A stretch of DNA of 64,000 nt from Acinetobacter sp. WCHA55 (GTDB lineage Bacteria; Pseudomonadota; Gammaproteobacteria; Pseudomonadales; Moraxellaceae), in contig NZ_CP032286.1 in NCBI RefSeq assembly GCF_002165305.2, positions 2,790,001-2,854,000 on the forward strand, in the 5' to 3' direction. The notes under the pieces are model-generated. The model was not told the origin of the DNA, searched no databases, and was given only the letters and a program-made list of their open reading frames with translations. Below, piece after piece: positions 35,003-37,990 of the stretch. The position numbers and the translations under genes are program-made. Every line of letters begins with the position of its first letter. Position 1 is the first letter of the stretch.

Positions 35003-35554
35003 TTACTTTTTCTTTTTAGGACCAAGCAACATACCCATTTGACGACCTTCCATTTTTGGTGATTGCTCAACAACACCAATTTCAGCCACATCGGCTTCAA
35101 CTTTTTGAAGTTGAGCCAAACCAAGCTGTTGGTGCGCCATTTCACGACCACGGAAACGAAGGGTAATTTTTACTTTGTTACCTTCTTCAAGGAACTTAGT
35201 GATTGCACGTAGTTTCACGTTGTAATCACCAACATCAGTACCCGGGCGGAGTTTGATTTCTTTCACCTGTACTTGATGCTGTTTTTTCTTCGCTTCTTTC
35301 TGCTTTTGCTTTAGATCAAACAAATGCTTGTTGAAGTCCATGATTTTACAAACAGGCGGTTCAGCATTTGCTACGATCTCAACAAGATCAAGCTCAACAC
35401 TTTCAGCAGCGCGCAATGCTTCTGCCAAGCTAACAATACCTTTTTGCTCACCATTTTCGTCTACAAGACGGACTTCTTTCGCACGAATTTCATCATTCAA
35501 AGCAGGACGGTTTGATTTGTTACCGCCCTGTTGATTACGGTCAGGCTGTTTAAT
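35003..35554 (-). CDS. infC: translation initiation factor IF-3, AUU start
   Basis: The 183-residue protein starts [11 protein letters not shown] and continues through [19 protein letters not shown] to the C-domain ([30 protein letters not shown]). There is no ATG. ATT at 35552-35554 is the natural start: GGAG lies 8 nt upstream and overlaps the end of thrS, and the N-terminal ~18 residues fit IF3. The in-frame TTG at 35500 would cut the conserved N terminus. In E. coli the AUU start lets IF3 repress its own synthesis. It starts 5 bp after the thrS stop. Confidence 0.93.
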
Positions 35555-35559
35555 CGCTG

Positions 35560-37482
35560 TTACTCCACAATGTACCGGCCGCGTTCGGCAACGGCTGCTT
35601 TTACTAGGTCAACGAAAGCGTCGATTGACATAGTACCCAAATTTGTTCCAGAGCGGGTACGCACGTTTACTGTACCTTCCTCTACCTCACGATCCCCAAG
35701 TACCAGTAAGTAAGGAATACGCTCTAATGTACGTTCACGAATCTTAAAGCCGATTTTCTCATTTCTCAAGTCTGAAATCGCTCGGAGGCCGTTTTCTTTA
35801 AGTTTAGCGACGACTGACTCACATGCTTCCGCTTGTGAATCGGTAATATTCATCACACACGCTTGGATTGGTGTTAACCAAGGTGGCATAAAGCCCGCAT
35901 AGTGTTCGATTAGTATACCAATAAAACGTTCAAAACTGCCAAGTATTGCACGGTGCAACATTACAGGCTGATCACGATCATTGTCTTCAGTGACATATGA
36001 TGCTTCTAAACGTTCTGGTAAATTGAAGTCACATTGGATTGTACCACATTGCCATACACGGCCTAAGCAGTCTTTCAGTGAGAATTCAATTTTCGGACCA
36101 TAGAATGCACCTTCACCTGGCTGAAGCTCCCACTCTAAACCAGCAGCATCTAAAGCATCTGCTAAAGATTTTTCAGCCATATCCCAAAGTGCATCATCAC
36201 CCACACGTTTCTCTGGACGTGTAGATAACTTCATTTGTACATCTTCGAAACCGAAGTCTTTATATACATCTAAAGTCAGTTGAATAAAGTCAGCCACTTC
36301 TTGACCAATCTGCTCTTTGGTACAGAAAATGTGTGCATCATCTTGAGTAAAGCCACGCACACGCATAATACCGTGCAATGAACCCGATGGTTCGTTACGG
36401 TGACACGAACCAAATTCAGCTAAACGAATTGGCAAATCACGGTATGACTTTAGACCTTGATTGAACACTTGTACGTGACAAGGACAGTTCATCGGTTTAA
36501 TAGCATAGTTACGGCTTTCTGAATGCGTCGTGAACATACCATCTGCATAGTTTGCAGCATGGCCTGATTTTTCCCAAAGGGTGAAATCAACCACTTGCGG
36601 TGTACGAATTTCGAGATAGCCATTATCTTGTTGTACTTTGCGCATGTATTGTTCAAGTACTTGATAAATGGTCCAACCGTTTGGATGCCAGAACACCATA
36701 CCTGGTGCTTCTTCTTGCATATGGAACAGGTCTAAAGCTTTACCAATTTTACGGTGGTCACGCTTTTCAGCTTCTTCAATACGTTTGATATAAGCCGCAA
36801 GCTGTTTTTTATCTGCCCACGCTGTACCATAAATACGTTGTAACTGTTCATTCTTCGCATCGCCGCGCCAGTAAGCGCCTGACATTTTAGTGAGCTTGAA
36901 TGCTTTTAAAAATTTAGTATTTGGCACGTGCGGACCACGGCACATATCCAAATAATCTTGATGGTAGTACAAGCCCATTTCTGTTTCTTCAGGCATGTCT
37001 GCAATCAAGCGTAATTTATAATCTTCACCACGCGCTGTGAACTCCGCTATCACCTCATCACGTGGTGTCATTTTTTTGATGACATCATAGTCTTGATCGA
37101 TGAGCTTTTTCATACGCTCTTCAATGGCTAGCATATCTTCTGGTGTAAATGGCTTTGCGCTAAAAATATCGTAATAGAAGCCATCTTCAATGACAGGACC
37201 AATCACCATTTTCGCTTCGGGGAACAATTGCTTCACTGCATGTCCCACCAAGTGCGCGCAAGAGTGACGAATGATTTCGACCCCTTCTTCGTCTTTAGGC
37301 GTAATAATTTGAAGGCTGGCATCCGTGGTAATCAAGTCAGATGCATCAACTAAACGACCATCGACTTTTCCTGCAACTGTATTTTTCGCAAGACCCGGAC
37401 CGATGCTCAGTGCAACGTCCATCACAGATACAGCTTGATCAAATTGTTTTTGATCGCCATTTGGCAAAGTGATAATTGGCAT
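35560..37482 (-). CDS. thrS: threonyl-tRNA synthetase
   Basis: The 640-residue protein has an N-terminal TGS domain (1-60), the editing domain ([20 protein letters not shown]) and the class II core with zinc-ligand motifs MNCPCHVQ and [30 protein letters not shown] motif 2. It ends in an anticodon-binding domain ([19 protein letters not shown]). It charges tRNA-Thr and hydrolyses Ser-tRNA-Thr. The leader carries a hairpin resembling a tRNA-Thr anticodon arm just upstream of AAGGA. infC follows directly. Confidence 0.97.
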
Positions 37483-37488
37483 AAAAAA

Positions 37489-37555
37489 TCCTTAAGGAGT
37501 GATGCCCCGTACCATGGAGCATGTCACCGCGAGATTATGATCGAGGCAAAACCTC
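37489..37555 (-). promoter_or_regulatory. candidate thrS translational operator (tRNA-Thr anticodon mimic)
   Basis: On the minus strand ATGCTCC and GGGGCAT (37502-37522) make a 7-bp stem with a 7-nt loop AUGGUAC. Read as an anticodon loop this is U33, GGU at 34-36 and A37, that is a tRNA-Thr(GGU) loop. It ends 8 nt before the Shine-Dalgarno AAGGA (37489-37493). A second hairpin, GAGG/CCTC (37543-37555), lies 20 nt further upstream. E. coli thrS is repressed by ThrRS binding a similar two-arm tRNA-like leader. Function here is inferred. Confidence 0.6.
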
Positions 37556-37560
37556 AAAAG

Positions 37561-37980
37561 ATAAAAACGGTGGATAAATAAAATCAGTCGAATTTTACAC
37601 GTGTTATCCACAGGATTAAACCTTTTCCCCTAGAAAATTCATGTTTCAGCGCATTTTGAATTCATTTGCCAATCCATCAGCCACCCAAGAATGAGGGAAT
37701 TGATACGCCGCAATCCTGATAACTACATTTTAGAATGACTTTACTGGTCACTTTTTATTGAACAATGCAGTAACACAAGCACACACATTTTGTTTAAAAA
37801 GCAAGCTAAAATCGACCAAAAAGCGCTTATATCGTACAGAATTCATAGATTCAGTTTAGATAAACTAAACAAAAAAGTTCAATAAATTCATCTAAAAAGC
37901 GCAACTCGACTAAAGCATAAATGCAAGATTTCTGAAAAATGCATATCTTTTAAGCAATGAAAAAATAATACTGAATTTGG
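37561..37980. other. intergenic region with DnaA-box-like sites
   Basis: About 420 AT-rich bases without a gene. A perfect DnaA box TTATCCACA lies at 37604-37612 and a one-mismatch inverted copy (TTATCCACC, minus strand) at 37569-37577. The rest must hold the thrS and acyl-CoA ligase promoters, which I could not place with confidence. Confidence 0.4.
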
Positions 37981-37990
37981 AGTGATAAAC

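Follow-up and report, generated by a model that had tools for sequence, protein, structure and literature searches.

The thrS Locus

The window (the whole 64,000-nt stretch of DNA that was analysed) carries thrS on its minus strand. The gene encodes a full-length threonyl-tRNA synthetase (ThrRS) with TGS, SAD, class II core and anticodon-binding domains, and the protein shares 63% identity with E. coli ThrRS across 636 aligned positions; both the N-terminal domains and the conserved anticodon-binding domain are thus present. After thrS comes infC (≈35500–35560, minus strand), the frame of which appears to begin at AUU (AUU AAA CAG CCU GAC CGU); E. coli infC likewise begins at an AUU codon. A 16S rRNA gene occupies positions 1–1352 on the minus strand and runs off the start of the window. 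The features discussed below are as follows:

35560..37482, minus strand: thrS, the proposed repressor and target, identified by its domains and by its identity to E. coli ThrRS
37489..37493, minus strand: Shine-Dalgarno sequence AAGGA, inside the palindrome UCCUUAAGGA (37489–37498)
37499..37501, minus strand: CAC side of an internal loop, found in each of the 116 distinct aligned rows, in part because rows were selected for it
37502..37522, minus strand: anticodon-arm mimic with a 7-bp stem and a 7-nt loop (loop 37509–37515; GGU 37511–37513), supported by sequence, conservation and covariation
37496..37526, minus strand: core operator as modelled (31 positions), supported by covariation and held-out matches
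37523..37534, minus strand: 5′ flank UCUCGCGGUGAC, a Moraxellaceae consensus
37541..37557, minus strand: second hairpin, UUGAGGU-UUU-GCCUCGA, at genus level and with no anticodon-like loop

The initial annotation described a hairpin in the thrS leader that mimics the anticodon arm of tRNA-Thr. Rereading of the minus strand confirmed its position, stem, loop, GGU triplet and spacing to the Shine-Dalgarno sequence. The hairpin consists of AUGCUCC (37522–37516), the loop AUGGUAC (37515–37509) and GGGGCAU (37508–37502), giving seven stem pairs, one of them U-G, and a loop with U33, GGU at 34–36 and A37. Eight nucleotides (CACUCCUU) separate it from AAGGA (37493–37489), and the ATG of thrS is at 37482. 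The window thereby has, 5′ of thrS, the hairpin of the E. coli type of thrS operator, with seven stem pairs and NGU at positions 34–36 of a 7-nt loop. Outside the stem, a 1 × 3 internal loop (C37523 against CAC, 37501–37499) is followed by two outer pairs, the clamp A37524-U37498 and then G37525-C37497. The palindrome around the Shine-Dalgarno sequence is perfect and is found in 52 of 52 aligned Acinetobacter leaders; UCACUCCUUA also resembles the 3′ end of 16S rRNA.

Single-sequence folding of the window leader gave equivocal results. The hairpin was present, with six of its pairs, in a 241-nt fold and was missing from the energy fold of 101 nt. A 56-nt fold kept six hairpin pairs and placed the outer strand in a different register: its lowest-energy form favoured GGUGA/UCACU, which breaks the conserved internal loop. 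We dropped single-sequence folding as proof of the hairpin and built the case on comparison rather than on energy. Among 5000 dinucleotide shuffles of its leader, 17 held an xUNGUxx hairpin with seven of seven pairs within 150 nt, so the window hairpin taken by itself would be suggestive, and the comparison of relatives decides.

Conservation and Covariation in Related Leaders

Leaders were collected from the genus, the family and the order, together with that of E. coli K-12. The resulting 199 rows represent 198 thrS leaders, as the window was entered twice (once as the window and once as L001), and nearly all are from Pseudomonadales. The first set came from 58 of 60 genomes, leaving out G030 (thrS without a start) and G031 (no thrS found); the second from 70 of 144 other genomes (29 as loci, 40 others and G094); and the third comprised 70 regions from 119 genomes, to which the E. 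coli leader was added. A further leader, L450, was fetched later and stands outside the 199 rows. A perfect seven-pair xUNGUxx hairpin was found in 124 of the 199 rows, compared to 0.44% of 9950 shuffles, and one with at least six pairs in 164 rows, compared to 4.0% of the shuffles.

The two alignments, one of Moraxellaceae and one of the other rows, contain 173 of the 199 rows (116 distinct). Entry required GU and a CAC or CGCC flank, and the constancy of those letters in the alignments is therefore partly by construction. We also made a pick in which, of the hairpins with CAC or CGCC after them, the best was taken whatever its loop letters. With no demand on the loop, GU was found at positions 35–36 in 173 of the 199 rows; among the 180 picks with at least six pairs, G35 was present in 174 and U36 in 173, and the handful of picks that lack GU seem to be hairpins of other kinds. 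U33 is not invariant, being found in 107 of the 116 distinct aligned rows.

The stem covaries between genera. Among the 58 distinct Moraxellaceae rows (of 113 aligned), 97.1% of the cells were paired, compared to at most 56.9% when one strand was slid along the other, and 133 cells were double-changed, compared to 36.4 in shuffles, a count in which the kinship of the sequences is ignored. The 58 distinct rows from outside the family (of 60, with E. coli among them) had 96.4% of cells paired and 20 double-changed, compared to 2.8 in shuffles, and a mix of 80 of the 116 distinct rows had 96.1% paired and 148 double-changed, compared to 42 (kinship again ignored in both). The 5′ strand reads AUGCUCC in Acinetobacter-type leaders, AUGUUUG, AUAUUUG or AUGAUUG in other Moraxellaceae genera, and most often GUGGCCU elsewhere. 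Inside Acinetobacter, the operator stem had one-sided changes only; the covariation thus comes from comparing genera, and it is across genera that compensatory changes were found in relatives. The alignment across Moraxellaceae that had been proposed as a check on the mimic bore it out, with compensatory stem changes seen and G35-U36 held, the latter in part through the entry requirement.

Outside the stem, 114 of the 116 distinct rows have A-U at positions −2/+4. Positions −3/+5 covary in Moraxellaceae (G-C in 32 rows, C-G in 13, U-G in eight and U-A in five, 58 of 58 paired) and are paired, mostly as C-G, in 55 of the 58 rows from elsewhere. The 1 × 3 internal loop, in which a single N faces CAC, separates the stem from these two outer pairs. 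Both this loop and the outer A-U clamp thus emerge from the comparison, the lowest-energy fold of the window itself being in another register. The fixed signature of the element is A(−2)…[stem-loop]…CACU, in which the A-U clamp has the covarying pair on its outer side and the 1 × 3 internal loop on its inner side.

The Wobble Position

The initial annotation had proposed that this genus uses a GGU version of the mimic, and this did not hold. Among the at least 118 Acinetobacter-type matches to an exact pattern, those listed have G at position 34 in 45 cases, U in 37, C in 34 and A in two (G35-U36 being preset by the search pattern). Since position 34 varies within Acinetobacter-type leaders, GGU is one of several versions. 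The 180 picks made with no demand on the loop agree, with G in 80, C in 50, U in 32 and A in 18. The identity rules of ThrRS are compatible with a constant G35-U36 and a free position 34.

The tRNA-Thr genes found in the window’s genome were one with GGU and two with UGU (several equal-scoring Ile/Ala loci were left out of the rescan). The anticodon arm of the tRNA-Thr(GGU), CUCCC-UUGGUAA-GGGAG, is near the operator’s CUCC-AUGGUAC-GGGG: the two share U33-G34-G35-U36-A37 and a C-rich/G-rich stem, whereas the tRNA has a 5-bp stem and A38, and the operator a 7-bp stem and C38.

The Upstream Hairpin

A second hairpin, with a GAGG/CCUC core, lies 20 nt upstream of the operator hairpin. It had been likened to the second arm of the E. 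coli operator. The hairpin itself is real and present in most of the genus: a GAGG-type stem was found in 64 of 68 genus rows (absent in L082, L089, L093 and L095), and its closing pairs differ between leaders and yet complement (UG, UA, AU, CG and GC; GAGG/CCUC and GAGC/GCUC). RNAalifold puts it inside a longer arm closed by CACCG/CGGUG. Covariation is thin, since only one of the 24 pairs of the genus leader was double-changed (in this hairpin, with none in the operator stem) and the covariation term was −0.36. What did not stand is the likeness to a second anticodon mimic. The best loop of the upstream hairpin is 3–6 nt long and not NGU-like, GU occurs anywhere in the best loop in only nine of the 68 rows, and no anticodon-like loop of the domain IV kind was found at this hairpin in the 68 genus rows. 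The CACCG/CGGUG arm with the GAGG hairpin was considered as the E. coli domain IV arm and rejected as a mimic on its loop.

We therefore claim class membership for the domain 2 element only. The alternative is a full two-arm operator of the E. coli kind, in which the GAGG/CCUC hairpin would be the second ThrRS site. The wide occurrence of the hairpin in the genus, its complementary closing pairs and the RNAalifold arm would fit such an operator; its short loop without NGU and the lack of the stem in four genus rows argue against it, and we consider it quite unlikely.

Distribution of the Operator

A covariance model of 31 positions was built from rows that included the window and one row from outside the order (E. 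coli). The window operator, being part of the model, scored E = 2.4e-6 against it. The 41 Acinetobacter genomes searched gave 41 model matches, and 39 of these genomes had one at 13–16 nt upstream of thrS. No match was obtained in G030 (65% complete), where thrS is represented by its C-terminal part alone, or in G031 (91% complete), where the gene was not found. Two weak further matches, in two of the 39 genomes (E = 0.29 and 0.54), were considered as extra ThrRS targets in the genus and taken as chance. In a scan of the exact leader-type pattern, a thrS start followed in 118 of the 118 matches listed (of at least 118), and 80 of these at least 118 comprised 73 from Acinetobacter, two from Alkanindiges and five from Moraxellaceae or gammaproteobacterial MAGs.

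Across the class, 40 of 134 genomes had a match at E = 0.01 or better, one apiece, in a scan that was run, like all those of more than 40 genomes, with strict filters that miss weak matches; the thrS gene was located in 126 of these genomes. All 40 matches sit 8–19 nt upstream of thrS, and all except that of the window come from outside its order. In a sample of 299 genomes from the phylum, 43 had matches. Two of these, outside the class and with E ≈ 0.004, are about at chance level and were set aside; thrS adjacency was checked for part of the other 41. Confident operator sites are single in each genome searched.

The 35 matches outside the order for which loci were returned were aligned by fitting to the model, an alignment that leans towards the model structure; 94.8% of their cells were paired and 20 were double-changed, compared to 4.9 in shuffles (kinship ignored). 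They keep A(−2), CACU and an outer pair that is C-G or U-G, letters that are favoured by the model used for finding them.

These results bear on whether the hairpin could have a structural role in ribosome standby, in mRNA stability or in RNase processing and resemble an anticodon arm only by chance. Hairpins beside a Shine-Dalgarno sequence are common, and conservation of the stem alone might fit such a role. However, the constancy of G35 and U36 (174 and 173 of 180) in picks made without any demand on the loop, and the confinement of confident model matches to thrS in the genomes checked, make this explanation highly improbable. A transcription attenuator or T-box-like leader sensing tRNA-Thr directly might be suspected from two hairpins in the leader of an aminoacyl-tRNA synthetase gene, but is extremely unlikely, as no intrinsic-terminator-like site or terminator/antiterminator was found in the scan of 37470–37990, no Rfam family, T-box included, reached its gathering score in the leader, and the conserved part adjoins the Shine-Dalgarno sequence.

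With Rfam 15, neither the window leader (T-box again included) nor the E. coli K-12 thrS leader reached the gathering score of any family; the sole match in the E. coli stretch (L202) was the Phe_leader of pheST. The covariance model thus provides a searchable description of an element unmatched by Rfam 15.

A second thrS-like gene, 45–46% identical, was seen in two Acinetobacter genomes, G051 (L090) and G042 (L091). No operator was found in the 5′-end stretches of these paralogs, in which the start codon was not located.

Relation to the E. coli Operator and Proposed Mechanism

In E. coli, hairpins II and IV of the thrS leader imitate the anticodon arm of tRNA-Thr; ThrRS binds them, and binding of the 30S subunit is blocked; changing the mimic to that of Met passes control to MetRS, and competition with tRNA-Thr sets the ThrRS level (PMC7373986, PMC11088916, PMC3858243). 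It is also reported that deletion of the N-terminus of ThrRS abolishes regulation (PMC7373986) and that the second hairpin, domain IV, belongs to the operator architecture (PMC11088916).

Folded without constraints, the E. coli thrS leader gave the same stem, 1 × 3 internal loop and outer pairs as found here. The window element shares with E. coli domain 2 the 7-bp/7-nt NGU hairpin, the A-U clamp, the 1 × 3 CAC internal loop and the location just upstream of the Shine-Dalgarno sequence. It differs in its loop triplet (GGU in the window, CGU in E. coli), its outer pair (G-C in the window, U-G in E. coli) and the number of anticodon-like arms (two in E. coli, one found in the window); in addition, Moraxellaceae have an invariant G-C beyond an unpaired U and a conserved flank. 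The assignment to an E. coli kind of thrS operator was upheld by this common layout, by the covariation across genera and by the model matches at thrS. We conclude that the window element is very probably the Acinetobacter ortholog of the gammaproteobacterial thrS translational operator, with self-repression by ThrRS as its proposed function.

Torres-Larios et al. reportedly described, in 2002, a characteristic RNA motif that thrS operators share in some Gram-negative bacteria. The fixed CAC and A-U clamp fit this motif, and the entry 1kog is the ThrRS-operator complex. Since that work reportedly generalised thrS control to these bacteria, the window operator is assigned to a known kind. Self-control of thrS is already known; the present analysis adds counts of how freely position 34 varies, how the clamp covaries and how often the operator is lost or displaced. 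No thrS operator or experiment from Acinetobacter or Moraxellaceae was found in the literature searched by title and start of abstract, mostly outside subscription papers.

By analogy with E. coli, Acinetobacter ThrRS is probably able to bind the thrS mRNA and turn it off. When ThrRS is in excess of tRNA-Thr, the anticodon-binding domain of the free enzyme would take the NGU loop, reading G35 and U36 with little regard to position 34, and the angle of the stem on ThrRS may be set by the CAC-containing internal loop together with the A-U clamp. Bound ThrRS would cover the Shine-Dalgarno sequence and keep the 30S subunit off, repressing its own translation, and tRNA-Thr would compete for the same site and relieve the repression. 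For Acinetobacter, we infer the binding, the competition with tRNA and the 30S subunit, and the repression from this analogy. Control of thrS is a textbook example of tRNA mimicry, and comparison makes a natural mutation experiment of the E. coli operator: position 34 differs between leaders, G35-U36 stay constant, and CAC and the clamp are as firm as the anticodon.

Lineage Variants

The 5′ flank of the Moraxellaceae operator contains UCUCG in 37, UCU in 47 and GGU in 51 of the 58 distinct rows; no flank consensus was found in the other distinct rows, from outside the family. Beyond the unpaired U (A in three of the 58 rows), G8-C39 is invariant in Moraxellaceae, and such invariance does not show that the two bases pair.

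In one Moraxellaceae genus, the operator is displaced. In all four of its sampled leaders, it starts 99–161 nt before the ATG (L151, −113; L152, −128; L153, −99; L450, −161), compared to 34–55 nt in the 170 other rows with the element. The operator of L450, which was not used for the model, scored 41.1 bits. In each of the four leaders, the stretch inserted between operator and Shine-Dalgarno sequence folds into an arm of its own, with complementary ends and differing sequence; the folding z-scores of these arms are modest (−0.95 to −2.66). A small ORF seen in L152 was absent by eye from L151 and L153 and was dropped.

One reading of these variants is that the Moraxellaceae operator has been rebuilt: the second anticodon-like arm would be gone, the 5′ flank (mostly UCUCG.GGU, with the unpaired U) would provide a second contact, with the other ThrRS subunit or the ribosome, and in the one genus the operator would act from 99–161 nt before the start codon via a bridging arm. 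We regard this as unlikely, if conceivable.

In the pick without a demand on the loop, the element was missing from 26 of the 199 rows (19 of 132 from Moraxellaceae and seven of 67 others), and the operator can thus be lost, as has happened repeatedly. Lineages with loss or displacement are places to test the mechanism. When the leaders without the element were rescanned with the filters off, the best scores were 13.1 and 12.8 bits (L178 and L196), the rest reaching 8.6 bits at most. These two leaders have the NGU loop and no CAC match, and look like decayed copies of the operator.
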